From the NCBI GenBank assembly GCA_030068145.1, contig JAPJBO010000122.1:124001-188000 (forward strand): DNA of 64,000 nucleotides, read 5' to 3'. A model generated the notes under the pieces. The model did not search any database, was not told the origin of the DNA, and saw only the letters and a list, made by a program, of their open reading frames with translations. Every line of letters starts with the position of its first letter. Positions within the stretch are counted from its first letter, which is position 1. The translations under genes were made by a program, and so were the position numbers. Of this stretch, positions 1-63,910 are shown one piece after another. The stretch comes from Diplonema papillatum. Its lineage: Eukaryota; Euglenozoa; Diplonemea; Diplonemida; Diplonemidae.

Positions 1-603
1 GATGCATTCCTAACACAGAAAAACTACGTACCCAACAAGTTTGGCCAAGCGAGCGTTCTCGCCACGCAAAGCTTCGATCGTGCGAGCCTGCTGGTGGCAG
101 TGGGCGCAGCCGGCGGGCGACGCCGGCGGTTGGGGGAGGTACGGGTTCATCATCTCGGACTTGGCGCGCTGCTTGGCCGCGAGCTGCCAGTTGTGGCGCC
201 TCTCCGCCGGGTAGTAAGGGGCTGCTTCGTCCTTATTTCGACGGAGGCCAGAACCAAGAAACAGGATACAAGGGCACAATTTGCGTTGAACCGGAACACA
301 ACGGCACGAATTTGTTTCGGGCAACAATATAAGGGAAGGTTTCCTTGTTACTTGGTACTTAATGTCAATAATACTGATAGTAGATGTTTCGTTGGTTTGG
401 TAATAAAGTGAGAGGGCAGGCCTGGTCACGGAAACTATCCTCAAAGCTTGCTGCGCTCGGTTCGCGCTATATCATAAATGGTCAGTACGACACTTTTTTT
501 TGTTTGTTGCGCGCTAGCGAAAATCACCTGCTTTGGTAAGCTTCGTGTACCACGCTGCCAACTGCTGACTAAAATGCATTGTTAACACAGACAAACTACG
601 TAC

Positions 604-813
604 CAACAAGTTTGACCAAGCGAGTGTTCTCGCCACGCAAAGCTTCGATCGTGCGAGCCTGCTGGTGGCAGTGGGCGCAGCCGGTGGGCGACGCCGGCGG
701 TTGGGGGAGGTACGGGTTCCGGGGCGACGACGCCCCCGGCAGCGCCTCGGACTTGGCGCGCTGCTTGGCCGCGAGCTGCCAGTTGTGGCGCCTCTCCGCC
801 GGGTAGTAAGGGG
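604..813 (-). CDS. Candidate in-frame duplicate exon (copy 2, long version)
   Basis: The length is 210 nt (70 codons), phase 1 at both ends, and it matches the 3' part of the first exon almost base for base. Splicing it in would duplicate the CAHC and coiled-coil start. The short copies at 32-221, 1200-1389, 1745-1934 and 2892-3081 are 190 nt and would shift the frame, so they may be skipped or act as poison exons. No transcript evidence is available here. Confidence 0.35.
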
Positions 814-2316
814 CTGCTTCGTCCTTATTACGACGGAGGCCAGAACCAAGAAACAGGATACAAGGGCACAATTTGCGTTGAACCGGAACACAACGGCACG
901 AATTTGTTTCGGGCAACAATATAAGGGAAGGTTTCCTTGTTACTTGGTACTTAATGTCAATAATACTGATAGTAGATGTTTCGTTGGTTTGGTAATAAAG
1001 TGAGAGGGCAGGCCTGGTCACGGAAACTATCCTCAAAGCTTGCTGCGCTCGGTTCGCGCTATATCATAAATGGTCAGTACGACACTTTTTTTGTTGTTTG
1101 TTGCGCGCTAGCGGAACTCACCTGTTTGGGTAAGCTTCGTGTAGCACGCTGCCAACTGCTGATTTAATGATGCATTCCTAACACAGAAAAACTACGTACC
1201 CAACAAGTTTGACCAAGCGAGCGTTCTCGCCACGCAAAGCTTCGATCGTGCGAGCCTGCTGGTGGCAGTGGGCGCAGCCGGTGGGCGACGCCGGCGGTTG
1301 GGGGAGGTACGGGTTCATCATCTCGGACTTGGCGCGCTGCTTGGCCGCGAGCTGCCAGTTGTGGCGCCTCTCCGCCGGGTAGTAAGGGGCTGCTTCGTCC
1401 TTATTTCGACGGAGGCCAGAACCAAGAAACAGGATACAAGGGCACAATTTGCGTTGAACCGGAACACAACGGCACGAATTTGTTTCGGGCAACAATATAA
1501 GGGAAGGTTTCCTTGTTACTTGGTACTTAATGTCAATAATACTGATAGTAGATGTTTCGTTGGTTTGGTAATAAAGTGAGAGGGCAGGCCTGGTCACGGA
1601 AACTATCCTCAAAGCTTGCTGCGCTCGGTTCGCGCTATATCATAAATGGTCAGTACGACACTTTTTTTTTTGTTTGTTGCGCGCTAGCGGAACTCACCTG
1701 TTTGGGATTTAATGATGCATTCCTAACACAGAAAAACTACGTACCCAACAAGTTTGACCAAGCGAGCGTTCTCGCCACGCAAAGCTTCGATCGTGCGAGC
1801 CTGCTGGTGGCAGTGGGCGCAGCCGGCGGGCGACGCCGGCGGTTGGGGAAGGTACGGGTTCATCATCTCGGACTTGGCGCGCTGCTTGGCCGCGAGCTGC
1901 CAGTTGTGGCGCCTCTCCGCCGGGTAGTAAGGGGCTGCTTCGTCCTTATTTCGACGGAGGCCAGAACCAAGAAACAGGATACAAGGGCACAATTTGCGTT
2001 GAACCGGAACACAACGGCACGAATTTGTTTCGGGCAACAATATAAGGGAGGGTTTCCTTGTTACTTGGTACTTAATGTCAATAATACTGATAGTAGATGT
2101 TTCGTTGGTTTGGTAATAAAGTGAGAGGGCAGGCCTGGTCACGGAAACTGTCCTCAAAGCTTGCTGCGCTCGGTTCGCGCTATATCATAAATGGTCAGTA
2201 CGACACTTTTTTTTGTTTGTTGCGCGCTAGCGAAAATCACCTGCTTTGGTAAGCTTCGTGTACCACGCTGCCAACTGCTGACTAAAATGCATTGTTAACA
2301 CAGACAAACTACGTAC

Positions 2317-2505
2317 CAACAAGTTTGACCAAGCGAGCGTTCTCGCCACGCAAAGCTTCGATCGTGCGAGCCTGCTGGTGGCAGTGGGCGCAGCCGGCGG
2401 GCGACGCCGGCGGTTGGGGGAGGTACGGGTTCATCATCTCGGACTTGGCGCGCTGCTTGGCCGCGAGCTGCCAGTTGTGGCGCCTCTCCGCCGGGTAGTA
2501 AGGGG
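2317..2505 (-). CDS. Candidate in-frame duplicate exon (copy 5, chimeric)
   Basis: The length is 189 nt, bounded by CAG acceptor and GTACGT donor. The acceptor takes the phase-1 overhang left by the 3464 donor (G + CC = Ala, then PYYPAERR), and 189 nt keeps that phase, so including it would add 63 residues without a frameshift. Its body is the short version, but its donor end (one C fewer) and flank match the long version, so it looks like a crossover product of the two types. Confidence 0.35.
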
Positions 2506-3463
2506 CTGCTTCGTCCTTATTTCGACGGAGGCCAGAACCAAGAAACAGGATACAAGGGCACAATTTGCGTTGAACCGGAACACAACGGCACGAATTTGTT
2601 TCGGGCAACAATATAAGGGAAGGTTTCCTTGTTACTTGGTACTTAATGTCAATAATACTGATAGTAGATGTTTCGTTGGTTTGGTAATAAAGTGAGAGGG
2701 CAGGCCTGGTCACGGAAACTATCCTCAAAGCTTGCTGCGCTCGGTTCGCGCTATATCATAAATGGTCAGTACGACACTTTTTTTGTTGTTTGTTGCGCGC
2801 TAGCGGAACTCACCTGTTTGGGTAAGCTTCGTGTAGCACGCTGCCAACTGCTGATTTAATGATGCATTCCTAACACAGAAAAACTACGTACCCAACAAGT
2901 TTGACCAAGCGAGCGTTCTCGCCACGCAAAGCTTCGATCGTGCGAGCCTGCTGGTGGCAGTGGGCGCAGCCGGTGGGCGACGCCGGCGGTTGGGGGAGGT
3001 ACGGGTTCATCATCTCGGACTTGGCGCGCTGCTTGGCCGCGAGCTGCCAGTTGTGGCGCCTCTCCGCCGGGTAGTAAGGGGCTGCTTCGTCCTTATTTCG
3101 ACGGAGGCCAGAACCAAGAAACAGGATACAAGGGCACAATTTGCGTTGAACCGGAACACAACGGCACGAATTTGTTTCGGGCAACAATATAAGGGAAGGT
3201 TTCCTTGTTACTTGGTACTTAATGTCAATAATACTGATAGTAGATGTTTCGTTGGTTTGGTAATAAAGTGAGAGGGCAGGCCTGGTCACGGAAACTATCC
3301 TCAAAGCTTGCTGCGCTCGGTTCGCGCTATATCATAAATGGTCAGTACGACACTTTTTTTTGTTTGTTGCGCGCTAACGAAAATCACCTGCTTTGGTAAG
3401 CTTCGTGTACCACGCTGCCAACTGCTGACTAAAATGCATTGTTAACACAGACAAGCTACGTAC

Positions 3464-3842
3464 CAACAAGTTTGACCAAGCGAGCGTTCTCGCCACGCAA
3501 AGCTTCGATCGTGCGAGCCTGCTGGTGGCAGTGGGCGCAGCCGGTGGGCGACGCCGGCGGTTGGGGGAGGTACGGGTTCCGGGGCGACGACGCCCCCGGC
3601 AGCGCCTCGGACTTGGCGCGCTGCTTGGCCGCGAGCTGCCAGTTGTGGCGCCTCTCCGCCGGGTAGTAAGGGGCCGGCGACGTCGAGCGCGCCGACGGCT
3701 TCTCGAAGCGGACGCTGAAGGAGCCGGCGGTCGACATGACGATCTTAGGTTGCAGCTCGTTGTACATGATGTCCGGGGCCGACAGGCAGGCTTCGCGGAC
3801 GCGCGGGCTGGTTATCAACGGCGGGGGTAGCGCTCCTGCCAT
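3464..3842 (-). CDS. First coding exon of an unrecognised protein with a CxxC and coiled-coil start
   Basis: An ATG at 3842 opens 126 complete codons ending at a GTACGT donor, leaving phase 1. The protein starts MAGALPPPLITSP. It has a polar middle, a Pro-rich stretch (NPYLPQPPASP), a C-x2-C pair (GCAHCH), and then what looks like the start of a leucine-type coiled coil (ARTIEALRGENARLVKLV). I do not recognise the family. The last 210 nt are the part copied six more times downstream. The remaining exons must lie left of the window. The upstream 230 bp hold a CT-rich tract ending in T13, which could be promoter or 5' UTR. Starting at 3842 rather than further upstream avoids translating that simple sequence. 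Confidence 0.5.
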
Positions 3843-5590: not shown

Positions 5591-6300
5591 TGCTTGAGCG
5601 AACCACGTGGGTTCGCCTTTGATTGGCCACGTCCAGTCGTGCTGCAGAATCCGATGGACTTCCTTGATCAACCGCAGTTGAATCAGTGGTGACAGCAGTT
5701 TTATCTTTTCCGTCTGCTTTCGTGACCATGCTTTGTCTTTATCAAGCTTTTTACAACAATTGTGTCTCGCACCCTTCGTGATGATCCTGCCGGTTAAACA
5801 ACATGATCTCGAAAGTAAAATGGTCTCGGTAGACGTTTCCTCTCGAGCCATGCCTTTGCTTGGGTGATCTCGATTTGACTTGCTGGCAAAGGGAAGGCGT
5901 GGTTACTGTTGGGACGTTTGGGATATTTTCCTTTGAACATTGCAGTTCGAACTCCGCAAAATGTTCTCTGACGAGGAAAGCGGAGGGGGATGCTACTGGC
6001 CTGATCGATTGGCGCCGTTCTGTGATACTCAGGGGACGGCAGGGATAACGTTTTCTTTCTAGATTGCTCGTGTCGAGAAGTGTCGGCCTTTGCAAGCACC
6101 GAACAACGGGTGCCGTCGTGTTCGTCGCCCAGGGCGCAAAACAAGGGGTGGTATCTCGGCACCATTGTCGGGCAAAGCATGTTACTGTGCAGGAATGCCG
6201 CATAACTGCTTATTTTGACGGCAAAAGATGGTCCACATTTCTCTTGTGGTTCACTACTCAGCAGAGTCCGCGGAGGTCTCGAGCGTGGTGAACACGACGT
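5590..6300. other. No gene recognised
   Basis: Two overlapping minus-strand frames of about 130-150 codons lie here, but their composition is not protein-like and no repeat or splice context supports them. Confidence 0.35.
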
Positions 6301-6692
6301 TATAGTCGGTTCAGTCTGAGTTTGAGGTTTTGAGGCTGAGTTCAGCCACCATCGTCATCCCTTACCGAAGGGATAGGTCCATTCACGCGCGTCCTTTAAT
6401 CAGGAGACGAGGCCTCTCCTCAGAAGACTCGAAGCGGCAAGCGGGAGCGGAGAACTCCGTTTGACCTGGGGTTTGAGTCTGTGAGCTTGAGGTTGAGTTC
6501 AGCCGTCGAGCCACACCATCGCCATATTGAACCCAAGGGACAGAAGGAAGCCCAATGGGTCCATTCATTTCGCAGCCTTCAATCAGGAGACTCACGGAGA
6601 CGAGACCTCTCCGTGAAAGACTTGAAGCGGCACACGGGAGGTGGAAACCCCCGGTTTGAGTTTGGCTTCGAGAGCTTGAGGTTGAGTTTGCC
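6300..6692 (-). repeat. Duplicated 3' flank of the ACAD8-like gene
   Basis: The sequence downstream of the ACAD8 stop (AACCCAAGGGACAGAAGGA, GGTCCATTCATTT, AATCAGGAGACGAG) occurs at 6340-6480, 6510-6660 and 7125-7270, so at least two rounds of tandem duplication involved this end. Confidence 0.65.
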
Positions 6693-7112
6693 CTACGCGA
6701 GGACGGCGCGCGAGACGATGAGACGCATGACTTTGTTGGTGCCTTCGAGGATCCGGTGCACGCGGAGGAACCGCTCGATGGGGTACGACTGCAGGTACCC
6801 GTACCCGCCGTGCAGCTGCAGGGCGTCGTCGACCACGTTCCAGCAGTCCTCAGCCACCTTCATCTTCGCCATGGCGCAGAACGCGGTTTTGTCCGGATGC
6901 CCCTGGTCCATCGCAGCAGCCGCCTGCCGGACTAACAGCCTGGACGCGTGCACCCTAGCCGCCATGTCGGCCAGCTTGAACTGCGTGTTCTGAAAGCTGC
7001 TGATGCTCTTGCCGAACTGTTGCCGCTCCTTCGTGTACGCCACCGCCAGGTCCAGCGACCGCTGCGCGGCACCCAGGGAGCAGGTTGCCATGCGAATCCA
7101 GCCCCTGTGCAG
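6693..7112 (-). pseudogene. Truncated tandem copy of the ACAD8-like terminal exon
   Basis: This encodes the last roughly 137 residues of the dehydrogenase, from ATCSLGAAQRSLDLAV to the stop, 591 bp downstream of the intact copy and nearly identical to it. Changes visible: a 9-nt in-frame loss (RFLRDLRVHR becomes RFLRVHR), Glu to Lys in LEGTNKVMR and a few conservative changes. Sequence upstream of ATCS is replaced by duplicated 3' flank, so there is no FAD-domain start and no acceptor. The frame is still open, which suggests a recent duplication by unequal exchange. It could in principle serve as an alternative last exon, but it lacks the rest of the catalytic domain. Confidence 0.85.
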
Positions 7113-7283
7113 CCCCACCATATCTCGAACCCAAGGGACAGAAGGAGTCCCAACAGGTCCATTCATTTCACAGTCTTTCAATCAGGAGACGAGACCTCTC
7201 CTTAACACTTAAAGACTGGAAGCGGCACATGGGAGGTGGAGAGGTGGAAAACCCCCCGGTTTGAGTTTGAGGTTGAGTTTGCC

Positions 7284-8312
7284 CTACGCGAGGACGGCGC
7301 GCGAGACGATGAGACGCATGACTTCGTTGGTGCCTTCGAGGATCCGGTGCACGCGGAGGTCGCGGAGGAACCGCTCGATGGGGTACGACTGCAGGTACCC
7401 GTACCCGCCGTGCAGCTGCAGGGCGTCGTCGACCACGTTCCAGCAGTCCTCGGTCACCTTCATCTTCGCCATGGCGCAGAACGCGGTTTTGTCCGGATGC
7501 TCCTGGTCCATCGCAGCGGCCGCCTGCCGGACTAACAGTCGGGACGCGTGCACACGAGCCGCCATGTCGGCCAGCTTGAACTGCGTGTTCTGAAAGCTGC
7601 TGATGCTCTTGCCGAACTGTTGCCGCTCCTTCGTGTACGCCACCGCCAGGTCCAGCGACCGTTGCGCGGCGCCCAGGGAGCAGGTTGCGATGTTGATCCG
7701 CCCCCCGTCGAGCCCCATCATAGCCATCCCAAACCCCTTCCCCTCGACGCCGCCCAGCAGATTCTCCGCCGGAACGACGGCGTCCTCGAAGATGACCTGC
7801 CGAGTCGGCTGGCAGTTCCACCCCATTTTGCTCTCGTTCGCCCCGAACGAGAGCCCGGGGGTGTCCTTCGGGACCACGATGCACGAGATTCCCTTCGCCC
7901 CTTCCCCCGTGCGCAGCATGACCACGTAGTACTTCGCGGTGCCGGCTCCGGAAATGAAGCACTTCGAGCCGTTTATCACGTAATTCGACCCGTCCTTCAC
8001 CGCCTTGGTCCGCAGGGACGCGGCATCCGACCCGCTTCCAGGCTCCGTGAGGCAGTAGCTCATGAGGTTCTCCATCGAGCAGACGTCCGGCAGGATGCGC
8101 TCCCGCTGCTCTTCGGTCCCGAAGCGGTCGACCATCCAGCAGCACATGTTGTGGATGGTCACGAACGCCGTGAACGACGGGCAGGCCCCAGACAGCTGCT
8201 CGAAGATCACGCTCGCGTCCAGCCGCCCCGCGCCGGTGCCGTGGTCGTCCTTCACGTACACAGCCCCGAACCCCAACTCGCCAGCCTTCGCCAGAACGTC
8301 GGTCGGAAAGTG
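7284..8312 (-). CDS. ACAD8: Isobutyryl-CoA dehydrogenase-like acyl-CoA dehydrogenase, terminal exon
   Basis: An FAD-dependent acyl-CoA dehydrogenase. The best match in my recall is mitochondrial isobutyryl-CoA dehydrogenase (valine breakdown, isobutyryl-CoA to methacrylyl-CoA), rather than the short- or medium-chain enzymes. The exon opens after a CTGCAG acceptor in phase 0 (HFPTDVLAKAGELGFG) and runs 342 codons to the stop. Seen in order: SVIFEQLSGACPS and TIHNMCCWMVD, the family signature YCLTEPGSGSDAASL, FISGAG, GISCIVVPKDTPGLSFG, GWNCQPTRQVIFED, GGRINIATCSLGAA, LQLHGGYGYL, and the catalytic-Glu segment RILEGTNEVMR. Human-type enzymes are about 415 residues, so roughly 70 N-terminal residues including the targeting peptide lie in upstream exons I could not find before 14 kb. 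A partial duplicate sits just downstream. Confidence 0.92.
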   Translation of the reverse strand, partial: HFPTDVLAKAGELGFGAVYVKDDHGTGAGRLDASVIFEQLSGACPSFTAFVTIHNMCCWMVDRFGTEEQRERILPDVCSMENLMSYCLTEPGSGSDAASLRTKAVKDGSNYVINGSKCFISGAGTAKYYVVMLRTGEGAKGISCIVVPKDTPGLSFGANESKMGWNCQPTRQVIFEDAVVPAENLLGGVEGKGFGMAMMGLDGGRINIATCSLGAAQRSLDLAVAYTKERQQFGKSISSFQNTQFKLADMAARVHASRLLVRQAAAAMDQEHPDKTAFCAMAKMKVTEDCWNVVDDALQLHGGYGYLQSYPIERFLRDLRVHRILEGTNEVMRLIVSRAVLA

Positions 8313-8344
8313 CTGCAGGCAAGAGTAGTGTGTTGCTGGGATGG

Positions 8345-8404
8345 GGAGAACCTTAGTTTAATGTTTCGGCAGGTCATACCTGCTTGACGCTAGCAGCAAG
8401 TAGA
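8345..8404 (+). repeat. Interspersed repeat family E
   Basis: Shorter copy of the 5333-5415 repeat (GGGGAGAACCTTAGTTTAAT...GACGCTAGCAGCAAG), lying just upstream of the ACAD8 exon acceptor, probably within the intron. Confidence 0.6.
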
Positions 8405-9560
8405 TGTTGTATGGAAAAGAAACGCAAAGATGGGAAAAGGGAGTGTAGAGCACCCAAAATAGGTTACGTCAGTTTTTTTTTAAGGCCACAGGATTGAATC
8501 GAGTTGGATCATTCGGACGTGTATTTAGCAGTGGAGTGGCCGATCGCTATCCAACTGGCCCAGAGAAGGCACCTTCCCGCGCAGATTGCGCCGGTTTACT
8601 GAGCTTCCACACACCTTGGTAGCATCCCACTTCGCTGCATGCGGCTCGATCTCCGTCGCTGCAAACGATCTTGCGGCGTCCTGTTGAATGGGGTTTGAGA
8701 CGATGAACGAAGGTGAAATGGGTCGGTTTGCGACGATTTGGGTGGAGATCCCCCGGAGGGGTACATTACACCTCGGCTGTTCTTTTTTAGCGTTAAATTC
8801 CGCTCCTTCGAGGGGTCACTCGGAGCCGTTGCTCCCACTCGTCCCGCGCATTTAACGTACATTTAATGCCGCGTTCGCCCAAACAGAATACGTGGTTACG
8901 GTCCTTAGCTGGCCTGCTAAAGCTGTGGGACAGAGCCGACGGCGCAGCCGCTGCTAGCAGGGGCGGCCTGTGCGGGACTGACTAAGCGACGGAGGCGGCA
9001 GGTGCGCAACCGTGGCTGTGAGTCTAACAGACGGAGCTCAGCTGGCGGCGAGCAAGCTTGCGTTTGCTGGCCGACCGCGCCATTCAGCTCACGTGTCTAT
9101 TGGATTGTCCCAATGGCTCTTATCCCAATGGACCTTTGGCGCAGCGCCCGAACGAAGGAGGGCGGGGAGGAAGCCCCGAACGGGAGCTAGCAACCGCGTC
9201 TCCTTCGCGACATCAGGGGACTGAAGCGCTGCCAGGACCAGCCAGCGGTCGGCCCTAGCGCACTTCGCTATTGCTGCGTCAACAACACGCTGGTCGACTT
9301 CCCCCCTTCTGCAGTGCAGGATGCCCCGGATGGGGAGTCCCGCCCCAAGCGTGTAGGAGCTTGCGTGGGCAGGGCCGCGATGTTATTCCCGGGACCTTGT
9401 CACGCACGCGTTGCCCGGGGCGACGTCGTTGTCCCCACGCCGAGATCAGATCCGGTCGGCACGGATGACCTGCCTCGACCTTGCCAGGACGTCGGGTTGG
9501 CGGTGCAGCAGGTCTTCTTTGGTGATCTCGGACTGACCGGGCGGGCCAGGCGAGTGGGTG
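8405..9560. other. No gene recognised
   Basis: Short overlapping frames only. This span should contain intron or upstream sequence of the ACAD8-like gene. I looked for an exon ending just before HFPTDV and did not find one. Confidence 0.4.
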
Positions 9561-9569
9561 ACGTACCCA

Positions 9570-10446
9570 CTAACTCCGATACTGGGCAGCCCGTCCTGAG
9601 GTGATGCAGCAGGTGGCGCCCCAGGTACCCAGATCCCGCGGCATCTCGTACCGGGGGGTCCACGTCGCGCAGACCAGCGGAAGTTGCAAGGACGTCTCTT
9701 TCCAGCTGGTCAAGAAATTCGCTGCCGTACTTGAGGTGAGGCAGCAGGGCGTCGGCGCCCTGGATACCCAGATCCCGCATCTCGTCTGGAAGGCCAATGT
9801 GGGCCCATGCGGCGGAAGTTGCGAGGACCTCTCTTTCCCAGCGGATCAAGAAATCCAGGCGCATGCGCTGGGCCTCCGAACCGGTGTCAGTGTGCAGGAA
9901 GTGCCGCGGTTATTTCGTCGTGATCTGGGACATGTCCCTGTCCACCGGTAAGGCGCCGAGGGCGCGCTCGGCGAACTCATACCTCCTCAGCACGCCTCGG
10001 AGCTGGAACTTGACTCCGGCGGACCAGAAGCCGACAGTCGGCGCTGCAATACGCAGCGTCCGGAGTGAGAGATGAGTTGGTGCTGATGCGCGGATGAGGT
10101 GAGTCCCTTCCGCGTTGATAGAGTGACGACGAACTTTCAAATATTAAACAGGGGGTAAACACCGCCGGCGAGTCAGCCATTGAGCCCCATGTGTCAAGGT
10201 CGAACCCGGCTGGTGACCCTCCTGGGAGGTACGGCAGCATGTCTAAGGGCTGCACACCTTCCCCCCTGGCCCACTTGATCCCTCTGAACACCTTCCGAGC
10301 CACGAGGTCGTCCGGCTTGAACTTGAAGTAGTGTGAAAAGACCGTTTGTGGCATCGACGAGCCCTGGTGTGGGGATCGGCTGAACAGGCCCATGTCGATA
10401 ACAGATAGACCGTATGCGACGTCGACTGCACGACATGCGGATGAAC
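9570..10446 (-). pseudogene. Degraded or intron-split coding region, family unknown
   Basis: Protein-like minus-strand segments succeed each other with breaks. From about 10430: VDVAYGLSVIDMGLFSRS, then FKFKPDDLVARKVFRGIKWARG and DLDTWGSMADSPAVFTP. In another frame APTVGFWSAGVKFQL and YEFAERALGALPVDRDMSQ end at a TAA (9910-9912). The same frame then continues with DTGSEAQRMRLDFLIRWE. The last part is an internal repeat of about 45 residues (FLIRWEREVLATSA, then FLDQLERDVLATSA). The in-frame stop and frame changes suggest a decayed gene or transposon ORF, though introns are possible. I do not recognise the family. Confidence 0.4.
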
Positions 10447-14085: not shown

Positions 14086-16155
14086 TTACTTTATGACGTC
14101 GTCCGTCGGGAGAGTCAACGATGATGAGGATGTGGTCAAACTAGTCATTTCCAAGTCAAGTTCAATTCCCGCTCGCTTTCGCGGTGCGGACTTTCCGGGC
14201 CGGTTTGGCTGTTTCCGGGTCGACGATGGGGAAGAAGTCAGGCATTCCATTTCGTGATCGAGCCCCTGTTTGTCTCCGAGGCGGCGGCAGATCTCACACT
14301 TCCCCTTGTAGTGCGCGACGCACTTCGTCGCGTTCCTCTTGTCGACCACCGCGCCCAGAAAATGGACGGGGTCCGGGTTTGCGGCAGGTCTCTGGGGGGC
14401 GGGCCACCGGCCTGCCCTCGCGCGTCGTTCGTCGTTGTACACGGGCCCATTGTCGTAGGCTCCGTTCCCCTTCAACTGTTCCTGGACGATTCCTCCTGTA
14501 GCGGGCATCCGGTGTCGGGGTCTGGGTTCCAGGCCCGGCAGGCTGGGCAGTCCAATAAAGGACAGTGCCGTGGTCACCGCCTTTATCGATCCGGGCAGGC
14601 AGCCGCCGAGCTCTTGCTGGGCCGCCAGCTTCATGACGGCACTGATCATGCATCGCATGCCGTTCGCTTTCTCGCGAAGCGTTTTCGCCTCCTTCTTGGG
14701 CAGCCGTACGTCCAAGCCGGAATACAACTCGAAGTCGACAGCGAGCTCAACCGATGCTACGTCGCCGGTCGATGACCACTCAAGTCCCGCGAGCCAGTCC
14801 ACGAGGGCGAGGAAGGTCCGTTCGTCCCAGTACCGTAACCACGCCCAAGCCGGGGCGATCCGCTGATACGGGAAATCGTACCTTCGCACCGGATTCTGCC
14901 CGCAAAGCTCCCACGGAGTTCTCGCTTTGCGGTCCTTCCATTCTTGGTTGACGTGCCTCGCACGTTCTGCCAGGATCTCCGCCATGAGGGATTGAACCGG
15001 CCCGACCAGATCTCTCGTGCGCGTCGTAGCAATTCCGTGCTCGAGGAGGCACCTGGGCCAGTCCCTCTTTTCCGCGGCTACGATCGCCGCGTACTCTGCT
15101 TTCGCGCGGATCGGGGTGTAGGCACCGCACCGCCAGAAGATGTGCGCCTCGTCCTCGACGCTCCCGTTGCCGCAGCTCGTACATGCGGGGTCACCTCCCT
15201 GATGCATCCGCGAAGTGTGCTGCGCCGTGTTGACGCCTCCGGCGATCGCCACTCTGATGAGCCGCGCGGTCTGGGGTGGGCAGGCCCGCGATTTCCACAG
15301 CGCGTTGGTGGCGTCAAGGTCGACGTCGGCGATGCCGGCATAACTGCCGCGCCTCGCGACGAGTCTCGCCCGCAGCCGCGTCTTCAGGTCGGAGCGGATA
15401 TCGTGGTTCCGCTCTGCTGGGGACTTGCCCAATGGCAAGTACGGTTCACCGTTTCGTTTTACATCGTCGAGGGGGCCGCCTGCCCAGTCGTGACCGCACG
15501 GCTCCAGTCCGTACTTCACAGCGATTCCTACGGGTCCCAGCGCCGCCGTCACGCGGGGCCCGTACATCTCCCGTATCTTTGCTGCTTGTGGTACGAGGTG
15601 CGGGAGTCTCTGGCATGCGGTGTAGAATTGCCCCGTTATGCTGTAGGCCATCCGGGTCGCCGGATCCGTCAGATGCGCCTTCTCGAGGATTCCCAGAACT
15701 GCCTCGGGTGCTCGCTTCGGGTTCTTCGTCCCCCATACCGCCGACATGACTCCGGTCGTCAGCTTCTCAACGGATTCCTTGGTCGTTGGGGCGAAGGGTA
15801 CTCTCGCCAGCGCGGCTGGGAGGACCGCGGATTGTACTAAGAGCACTCTGCTCGGTTGCGGAATCGGGACGTGACGTAGGTTGTGGGCGGTGCTGGTGGC
15901 GGTCTCGAGCCTGGCCGTGTCGTTGTGGTCGCGCCCCTTCCGTGAGGTGCTCAGTTTGGCCCCAAGGCATTTTAGCGCTGTCGCCTGGGGAAACTTCCTC
16001 CCCGTGCTCCGGAGCTGAAGTCGCGACACGTAATCACGGACGGTCGTGAACACAAACGTCTTGTCCATGTTCAACGCCATGCCGGTGAGCCGGCAGAACT
16101 CGTCTACTACGTCGACTCCCTTCTGGAGGATGTTGAGCAGGGGTTGCCATGCAGC
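14086..16155 (-). mobile_element. 5'-truncated non-LTR retrotransposon, RT C-terminus and zinc knuckles
   Basis: One open frame runs from the truncation point at about 16155 (LLNILQKGVDVVDEFCRLTG, then MALNMDKTFVF) to a TAA at 14086, about 687 codons. The start resembles the end of a LINE reverse-transcriptase palm (LNxxKT) followed by the thumb motif CLGAKLS. A Cys-His knuckle of the type found after LINE RT domains follows (C300, C303, H313, C318 counted from MALN: CTSCGNG...HIFWRC). Near the end is another Cys-rich stretch (CEICRRLGDKQGLDHEMEC). The catalytic YADD part and everything 5' of it are missing; repeat sequence starts immediately upstream. No in-frame stop, so the insertion is fairly young. 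No RNase H domain is evident. Confidence 0.85.
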
Positions 16156-16159
16156 TCTT

Positions 16160-16290
16160 ATGTTTTAGAGTGAAAGTTCGCTTGAAACTCCGGGGTTTTA
16201 AAAGTCTTCGTCGTTATGGGAAGAGAGAGAGACGAGTTAGAGTGCAGGGACCATCTCTCCGAGGAGTATCCGGTCGCCCCACTACTATCC
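16160..16290 (+). repeat. Repeat motif TAGAGTGAAAGTTCGCTTGA plus family D
   Basis: The motif at 16162 abuts the truncated LINE and recurs near 27297, 30117, 30713 and 56394. It is followed by family D (GAGTTAGAGTGCAGGGACCA TCTCTCC), also seen at 17727-17800, 34014-34110, 46426-46482 and, diverged, at 52290 and 57762. Confidence 0.65.
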
Positions 16291-26530: not shown

Positions 26531-26545
26531 ATTTTTTTTCTTCTT

Positions 26546-27033
26546 TTCTTCTTCTTCTTCTTCTTCTTCTTCTTCTTCTTCTTCTTCTTCTTCTTCTTCT
26601 TCTTCTTCTTCTTCTTCTTCTTCTTCTTCTTCTTCTTCTTCTTCTTCTTCTTCTTCTTCTTCTTCTTCTTCTTCTTCTTCTTCTTCTTCTTCTTCTTCTT
26701 CTTCTTCTTCTTCTTCTTCTTCTTCTTCTTCTTCTTCTTCTTCTTCTTCTTCTTCTTCTTCTTCTTCTTCTTCTTCTTCTTCTTCTTCTTCTTCTTCTTC
26801 TTCTTCTTCTTCTTCTTCTTCTTCTTCTTCTTCTTCTTCTTCTTCTTCTTCTTCTTCTTCTTCTTCTTCTTCTTCTTCTTCTTCTTCTTCTTCTTCTTCT
26901 TCTTCTTCTTCTTCTTCTTCTTCTTCTTCTTCTTCTTCTTCTTCTTCTTCTTCTTCTTCTTCTTCTTCTTCTTCTTCTTCTTCTTCTTCTTCTTCTTCTT
27001 CTTCTTCTTCTTCTTCTTCTTCTTCTTCTTCTT
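26546..27033 (+). repeat. Perfect (CTT)n microsatellite, about 162 units
   Basis: Uninterrupted CTT/GAA repeat of about 490 bp, followed by GTCTTCGCAG, which resembles a 3' splice site. All reading frames are open (poly-Ser, poly-Leu, poly-Glu on the other strand), so the long ORFs here are not genes. Confidence 0.98.
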
Positions 27034-46213: not shown

Positions 46214-46482
<269 letters not shown>

Positions 46483-61489: not shown

Positions 61490-63910
61490 GCCCTGTGCAC
61501 TGTATCCGGCCCTGTGCACTGTATCCGGCCCTGTGCACTGTATCCGGCCCTGTATCCGGCCCTGTGCACTGTATCCGGCCCTGTGCACTGTATCCGGCCC
61601 TGTGCACTGTATCCGGCCCTGTGCACTGTATCCGGCCCTGTGCACTATATCCGGCCCTGTGCACTGTATCCGGCCCTGTGCACTATATCCGGCCCTGTGC
61701 ACTGTATCCGGCCCTGTGCACTATATCCGGCCCTGTGCACTGTATCCGGCCCTGTGCACTGTATTAGGCCCTGTGCACTGTATCCGGCCCTGTATCCGGC
61801 CCTGTGCACTGTATTAGGCCCTGTGCACTGTATCCGGCCCTGTATCCGGCCCTGTGCACTGTATCCGGCCCTGTGCACTGTATCCGGCCCTGTGCACTGT
61901 ATCCGGCCCTGTGCACTATATCCGGCCCTGTGCACTGTATCCGGCCCTGTGCACTATATCCGGCCCTGTGCACTGTATCCGGCCCTGTGCACTATATCCG
62001 GCCCTGTGCACTGTATCCGGCCCTGTGCACTATATCCGGCCCTGTGCACTGTATCCGGCCCTGTGCACTGTATTAGGCCCTGTGCACTGTATCCGGCCCT
62101 GTATCCGGCCCTGTGCACTGTATCCGGCCCTGTGCACTGTATTAGGCCCTGTGCACTGTATCCGGCCCTGTATCCGGCCCTGTGCACTGTATCCGGCCCT
62201 GTGCACTGTATTAGGCCCTGTGCACTGTATCCGGCCCTGTGCACTGTATCCGGCCCTGTGCACTGTATCCGGCCCTGTGCACTGTATCCGGCCCTGTGCA
62301 CTGTATCCGGCCCTGTGCACTGTATCCGGCCCTGTGCACTGTATCCGGCCCTGTGCACTGTATCCGGCCCTGTGCACTGTATCCGGCCCTGTGCACTGTA
62401 TCCGGCCCTGTGCACTATATCCGGCCCTGTGCACTGTATCCGGCCCTGTGCACTGTATTAGGCCCTGTGCACTGTATCCGGCCCTGTATCCGGCCCTGTG
62501 CACTGTATCCGGCCCTGTGCACTGTATTAGGCCCTGTGCACTGTATCCGGCCCTGTGCACTGTATCCGGCCCTGTGCACTGTATCCGGCCCTGTGCACTA
62601 TATCCGGCCCTGTGCACTGTATCCGGCCCTGTGCACTATATCCGGCCCTGTGCACTGTATCCGGCCCTGTGCACTATATCCGGCCCTGTGCACTGTATCC
62701 GGCCCTGTGCACTATATCCGGCCCTGTGCACTGTATCCGGCCCTGTGCACTGTATTAGGCCCTGTGCACTGTATCCGGCCCTGTATCCGGCCCTGTGCAC
62801 TGTATCCGGCCCTGTGCACTGTATTAGGCCCTGTGCACTGTATCCGGCCCTGTATCCGGCCCTGTGCACTGTATCCGGCCCTGTGCACTGTATTAGGCCC
62901 TGTGCACTGTATCCGGCCCTGTATCCGGCCCTGTGCACTGTATCCGGCCCTGTGCACTGTATTAGGCCCTGTGCACTGTATCCGGCCCTGTGCACTGTAT
63001 CCGGCCCTGTGCACTGTATCCGGCCCTGTGCACTGTATCCGGCCCTGTGCACTGTATCCGGCCCTGTGCACTGTATCCGGCCCTGTGCACTGTATCCGGC
63101 CCTGTGCACTGTATCCGGCCCTGTGCACTATATCCGGCCCTGTGCACTATATCCGGCCCTGTGCACTGTATCCGGCCCTGTGCACTATATCCGGCCCTGT
63201 GCACTGTATCCGGCCCTGTGCACTGTATTAGGCCCTGTGCACTGTATCCGGCCCTGTATCCGGCCCTGTGCACTGTATCCGGCCCTGTGCACTATATCCG
63301 GCCCTGTGCACTGTATCCGGCCCTGTGCACTATATCCGGCCCTGTGCACTGTATCCGGCCCTGTGCACTGTATCCGGCCCTGTGCACTGTATCCGGCCCT
63401 GTGCACTGTATCCGGCCCTGTGCACTGTATCCGGCCCTGTGCACTGTATCCGGCCCTGTGCACTGTATCCGGCCCTGTGCACTGTATCCGGCCCTGTGCA
63501 CTGTATCCGGCCCTGTGCACTGTATCCGGCCCTGTGCACTGTATCCGGCCCTGTGCACTGTATCCGGCCCTGTGCACTGTATCCGGCCCTGTGCACTGTA
63601 TCCGGCCCTGTGCACTGTATCCGGCCCTGTGCACTATATCCGGCCCTGTGCACTGTATCCGGCCCTGTGCACTGTATCCGGCCCTGTGCACTGTATTAGG
63701 CCCTGTGCACTGTATCCGGCCCTGTGCACTGTATCCGGCCCTGTGCACTGTATCCGGCCCTGTGCACTGTATCCGGCCCTGTGCACTGTATCCGGCCCTG
63801 TGCACTGTATCCGGCCCTGTGCACTGTATCCGGCCCTGTGCACTGTATCCGGCCCTGTATCCGGCCCTGTGCACTGTATCCGGCCCTGTATCCGACCCTG
63901 TGCACTGTAT
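61490..63910. repeat. 19-bp minisatellite, about 125 copies with ordered variants
   Basis: Basic unit GCACTGTATCCGGCCCTGT. Variants: GCACTATATCC, GCACTGTATTAGG, and a 12-bp short form ATCCGGCCCTGT. Variants occur in runs (alternating A-type at 61642-61730 and 61915-62035; T-type next to short form at 61758-61850, 62065-62210, 62450-62530, 62750-62965), showing that blocks were copied. All frames are open in both directions. Confidence 0.97.

Follow-up and report, generated by a model that had tools for sequence, protein, structure and literature searches.

The left end of the window, a stretch of 64 000 nucleotides from a Diplonema papillatum contig (C122:124001-188000; genome 271 Mb), carries on its minus strand a first exon followed by six tandem copies of that exon's last 189-210 nt. 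This structure is quite probably a recent tandem-duplication array within a gene, which the main message skips and in which the copies are mostly passengers. The reading is supported by the anatomy of the array, an in-frame second exon beyond it, the near-identity of the copies and the local duplications nearby. Counting against it, decay has not reached the six copies: in each, the donor and the adjoining AG are intact and the original phase still reads open.

Anatomy of the array

Positions are those of the window unless a contig position (C122) is given, and the donor-block types G and T are described with the repeat unit. The exonic features were as follows.

3464..3842 (-), exon 1: 379 nt, 126 codons plus 1 nt, ATG at 3842, donor in phase 1
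3464-3673 (-), 3' part of exon 1 in the 210-nt form, either the source of the repeated segment or its sister
2892..3081 (-), copy 6 of the exon 1 3' part: 190 nt, frame-shifting, T-type donor block
2317..2505 (-), copy 5: 189 nt, frame-keeping, G-type donor block
1745..1934 (-), copy 4: 190 nt, frame-shifting, T-type donor block, with 31 nt deleted from the unit's intron
1200..1389 (-), copy 3: 190 nt, frame-shifting, T-type donor block
604..813 (-), copy 2: 210 nt, frame-keeping, G-type donor block
32..221 (-), copy 1: 190 nt, frame-shifting, T-type donor block, intron split by a retroelement past the left edge

The donor GTACGTAG occurs seven times on the minus strand, starting at 3463, 2891, 2316, 1744, 1199, 603 and 31, and the repeated segment opens with CCCCTTACTACC, whose minus-strand starts lie at 3673 (within exon 1), 3081, 2505, 1934, 1389, 813 and 221. 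From right to left the copies measure 190, 189, 190, 190, 210 and 190 nt, and the units 592, 576, 571, 545, 576 and 592 nt, plus a final piece cut by the retroelement. A 300-nt stretch (family D1) was 99-100% identical across its six copies. Other ungapped families of the array fell to 60-92% identity in some copies because length differences of 21 nt and 1 nt break the register. A chance origin of the array is excluded.

The first-pass annotation had described seven units, each with an acceptor, an exon and a GTACGT donor. The donors were found in all seven, those of the six copies being the same as that of exon 1, but an AG acceptor precedes only six of the seven; the copy within exon 1 is preceded by GG. 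The phase 1 that it had assigned to the first-exon donor agrees with the 379-nt length of exon 1, from the ATG at 3842 to the last base at 3464, and entry into a copy reads ...LVKLV-APYY, as expected from its proposal that the copy acceptor restores Ala-Pro-Tyr-Tyr. Its division of the copies was likewise confirmed: frame is kept by two of the six (copy 2, 210 nt; copy 5, 189 nt) and broken by the four of 190 nt.

Gene model and predicted protein

A second coding exon lies beyond the left edge, from C122:119784 downwards, and continues exon 1 in frame. The intron, after resuming, ends ...CGCTAACATACACGACGCAG; exon 2 then joins as ...ENARLVKLV-GTIHEHVSKFAESSAEQADGTRYLMELLAAS... and stays open to a TGA, which is overlapped by GTGAGT, a possible donor towards a third exon. 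The predicted two-exon protein has 174 aa, and the gene model of exon 1 plus exon 2 is put forward as inferred from the sequence. GC3 was 0.865 in exon 1 and 0.894 in exon 2, compared with 0.869 in a reference of 1501 codons from four Pfam-supported exons nearby (WDR3 not among them). A codon test against the same reference supports, and does not prove, a gene at exon 1: the proposed frame scored far above the other two forward frames, one antisense frame scored like it, and 18% of 1786 random open windows in the contig scored as high as exon 1 or higher.

When the 174-aa protein was searched against its own genome, the eight strong matches all lay at the array locus and the other seven had E values of ~0.2 or worse (48 of 48 candidates scored). 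Neither a PDB match nor a Pfam family was found for it up to E 1. A downstream WD-repeat open frame was considered as a further part of the array gene and was taken as separate, with its own start and a match to WDR3/UTP12.

Structure of the repeat unit

From the donor, each unit consists of ~8 nt, a short dispersed repeat with an A-run, ~100 nt that are also found before exon 2, a junction segment of 178 nt (a length taken from alignments) and the next copy. The intronic features were as follows.

3344..3449 (-), short dispersed repeat just inside the donor, carried by the other units too, in two types (G and T)
3082..3259, 2506-2683, 1935-2112, 1390-1567, 814-991 and 222-399 (-), six junction segments of 178 nt that precede the copies and end GAAGCAG

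The junction segment was absent from the intron tail adjoining exon 2, and no convincing match besides the six copies was seen in 104 kb of the contig. In the genome search it gave one partial match (77%), in a repeated stretch on C517, and no further full copy (eight of eight candidates scored).

The donor-side block is of type G in units 7, 5 and 2 and of type T in units 6, 4, 3 and 1. Divergence between the types runs from the exon-intron boundary to the A-run (for example, blocks 3344-3463 and 2766-2891) and amounts to 10.9% (128 of 1179 compared positions), whereas the remaining intron differs by 0.36% between the same types (9 of 2493). Simple expansion does not explain this disparity, and the block divergence may perhaps reflect ectopic conversion from dispersed copies of the repeat. 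With the blocks in the order G T G T T G T, expansion seems to have gone partly by dimers. The extra G that makes a copy 190 nt long comes with the T-type block. The long (ALPGASSPR) and short (MM) forms of the exon segment are distributed differently from the G and T types, and exchange has therefore shuffled the parts.

The intron beyond the left edge

The last unit runs ~80 nt past the left edge of the window, is broken there by the retroelement and resumes at ~C122:120010. The retroelement (L009 ~6000-9920, C122:120000-123920) sits inside the A-run of the last unit's intron. It has a long open frame, and a 1080-aa stretch matched the reverse transcriptase family RVT_1 at E 7.5e-14 and an endonuclease family with a score under the curated cut-off; from this domain order and the A-rich end it would be of the non-LTR kind. 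Past it, 108 nt of intron are 99% identical to the intron of the array.

The end of the intron before exon 2 (L009:5785-5900) is a high-copy dispersed repeat, with 1113 first-look candidates; among the 40 of these that were scored, most matches end ~14 nt before the acceptor. The other local copies mostly continue into differing sequence before the acceptor, and one of the seven others listed matches through to a CAG. Intron 1 is largely composed of repeats. The idea that mobile elements made the intron in the manner of introners, considered on account of the donor-side and exon-2-side repeats, may hold but is not supported. By eye, the short flanks of 26 dispersed copies of the donor-side repeat, and those of 29 loci, had no common donor.

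Splice signals of the copies

Of 18 positions, four are pyrimidines in the acceptors of five copies and five in that of copy 2, which places them at the 4th and 9th percentile, respectively, among 3804 CAG sites, and closer upstream AGs end at -3 and -10. Four natural acceptors on the same contig served as a small yardstick (exon 2, two in WDR3 and one in an acyl-CoA dehydrogenase gene), three of them positioned from open frames in the light of known relatives; they have 8-12 pyrimidines of 18, and the nearest AG ends no closer than -23. The copy acceptors look poorer than these. The natural acceptors on this contig are not strong either (n = 4), two of them lying only at the 51st percentile of the CAG sites. 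No YTNAY was present in the last 45 nt before the copies; three of the four natural acceptors also have no match to it, and the motif therefore does not discriminate.

The phase match of the copies is weak evidence, since one in three breakpoints placed at random in exon 1 would agree with the phase of the donor. The G before CCCC is already in exon 1, and one further base (A) sufficed for an AG. That an AG falls exactly at the breakpoint in the correct phase is a mild coincidence, of ~1 in 12 by an arithmetic estimate.

Frame outcomes and alternative explanations

In translation, exon 1 joined to exon 2 through copy 5 stays open for 237 aa and through copy 2 for 244 aa. Inclusion of any one 190-nt copy alone leads to a stop at 204 aa, in exon 2 read out of frame, and inclusion of all copies together to a stop at 339 aa. 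The exon part common to the seven copies has 4 substitutions in 189 nt, of which 3 replace an amino acid, and the intron of the six copies outside the donor-side block has 3 in 277 nt, counts taken without the G/T block, the extra G or the MM/ALPGASSPR columns. The exon part is no less variable than the intron, on counts that are tiny and too few for a firm test.

The two open joins, together with the intact donors in every copy, are what would be expected if the array generated isoforms, with copies 2 and 5 included singly or together so that protein length varied by +70 or +63 residues. The added residues would duplicate the stretch that leads up to the end of exon 1, a stretch that is coiled-coil-like by eye only. 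This explanation is nevertheless unlikely: the copy acceptors are weak, the few changes give no sign of coding constraint, and the splicing machinery would have to distinguish frame-keeping copies from the frame-breaking ones among which they lie, although their acceptor contexts are identical but for one base at copy 2. A polymorphic 'exon VNTR', which we hold to be quite unlikely, would have copy number differing between individuals and inclusion graded and low, with array length tuning protein length through the 189- and 210-nt copies and the frame-broken share through the 190-nt copies.

Highly identical tandem units of ~575 bp pose a difficulty for assembly, and copy number or order could be wrong through repeat misassembly. 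We regard such an artefact as distinctly unlikely, given that several units carry private variants (the 31-nt deletion, single changes) and that the 210- and 189-nt forms are interspersed; moreover, no full copy of the junction segment turned up elsewhere in the genome (all eight candidates scored), and thus neither a second allele nor a second contig.

The stop at 204 aa might make poison exons of the four 190-nt copies, included to lower expression, but this is very improbable. If a single copy is included, the stop comes to lie in exon 2, which is the last exon found, and under the usual junction rule a stop in the last exon would not call for decay. The shift itself is one extra G common to one block type, and so most simply one event inherited by duplication; the acceptors are the same weak ones. 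It is scarcely credible that an older intron stood before CCCCTTACTACC, the copies keeping its GAAGCAG acceptor and exon 1 having lost it: this would account for copies that start right after an AG and in phase 1, but identity with exon 1 starts at the shared G, only one base is coincidental and the acceptor context is poor.

Local duplications in the neighbourhood

A scan of 104 kb of the contig gave, after merging, 23 clusters of direct duplication, the array being one (pairs of at least 150 bp, at least 80% identical and less than 5 kb apart). Their spans sum to 31.3 kb with unduplicated gaps included, and they take in short-unit arrays and pairs that are possibly dispersed repeats.

In WDR3/UTP12 (L009, C122:114656-118225), two partial copies of the 5' part stand upstream of the gene. 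An internal exon of WDR3 is duplicated within an intron (L010, C122:112260-112567 and 110997-111304; 96% over 308 bp), and one WDR3 exon copy has lost the CAG before it and gained a stop, a dead exon copy. The 3' part of the acyl-CoA dehydrogenase gene is tandemly duplicated at window 6522-7722 (87.5% over 616 bp). In this neighbourhood, then, it is not unusual for part of a gene to be duplicated with no visible function.

Elsewhere in the window, a 692-aa open frame at 14089-16164 (-) gave a sub-threshold match to a reverse-transcriptase zinc-binding domain (24.8 bits, cut-off 27.5). Simple arrays of TTC (~166 copies) and AG (~105 copies) lie at 26538-27033 and 46217-46426, and a tandem array of a 19-bp unit (~130 copies) at 61490-63889. 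Family searches gave no chlorophyll-binding match, the control being detected in 1 of 14 genomes, and no EsV-1-7 match, a result that is uninformative because its control was detected nowhere.

Proposed origin and meaning

The first-pass annotation had offered the array as a source of isoforms or as a recent unequal-crossover array. The second proposal is favoured by the near-identical units, the nearly alternating block types, the private variants and the many local duplications; the first is not supported, given weak acceptors, no visible coding constraint on the few changes and the truncation that four of the six copies would cause. In the passenger reading that we prefer, a partial tandem duplication would have copied a segment reaching from the 3' part of exon 1 across the 5' splice site into the start of intron 1. 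Expansion to six extra copies would have followed, probably through unequal exchange, with G-T dimers as the unit for part of it. The main transcript would join the donor at 3464 to exon 2 (C122:119784) and would presumably lose, as one intron of ~7.7 kb, both the array and the retroelement that came later; the copies would be mostly passengers, perhaps with aberrant inclusion now and then.

So read, the array gives a clear picture of how partial tandem duplication can fill an intron with exon-like sequence in which the donors are good and the acceptors poor; it cautions against taking phase-matched copies for isoforms. If the copies proved to be included, the array would illustrate how exon number has evolved very recently.

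Comparison with known systems

As in introners (PMC9860276), a dispersed repeat lies a few bases inside the donor; unlike them, the other copies of this donor-side repeat have, by eye, no apparent common donor. With mutually exclusive arrays such as that of Dscam (PMC3236188), the locus shares tandem homologous exon-sized units between two constant exons, but diverged and maintained coding copies are not seen, and frame is preserved by two of the six copies and broken by four. Like poison exons, four of the six copies give an early stop when included alone, here in exon 2.

A survey of tandem exon duplications counts thousands of unannotated intronic targets similar to exons (PMC9013439). The present array resembles such duplications in having a coding segment and a splice site copied beside itself in one gene, and it does consist of head-to-tail copies of an exon-derived segment within one (predicted) gene. 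It differs from them (PMC9013439) in that only the 3' part of a first exon was copied, into six near-identical copies, and in that the upstream AG was not inherited from exon 1: no complete exon with both natural splice sites was copied, and the AG stands in the junction segment with its G common to exon 1. Tandem duplication across an exon-intron boundary is able to supply splice sites, and the array is alike in this, but its copies sit in an existing intron and would add exons instead of splitting one.
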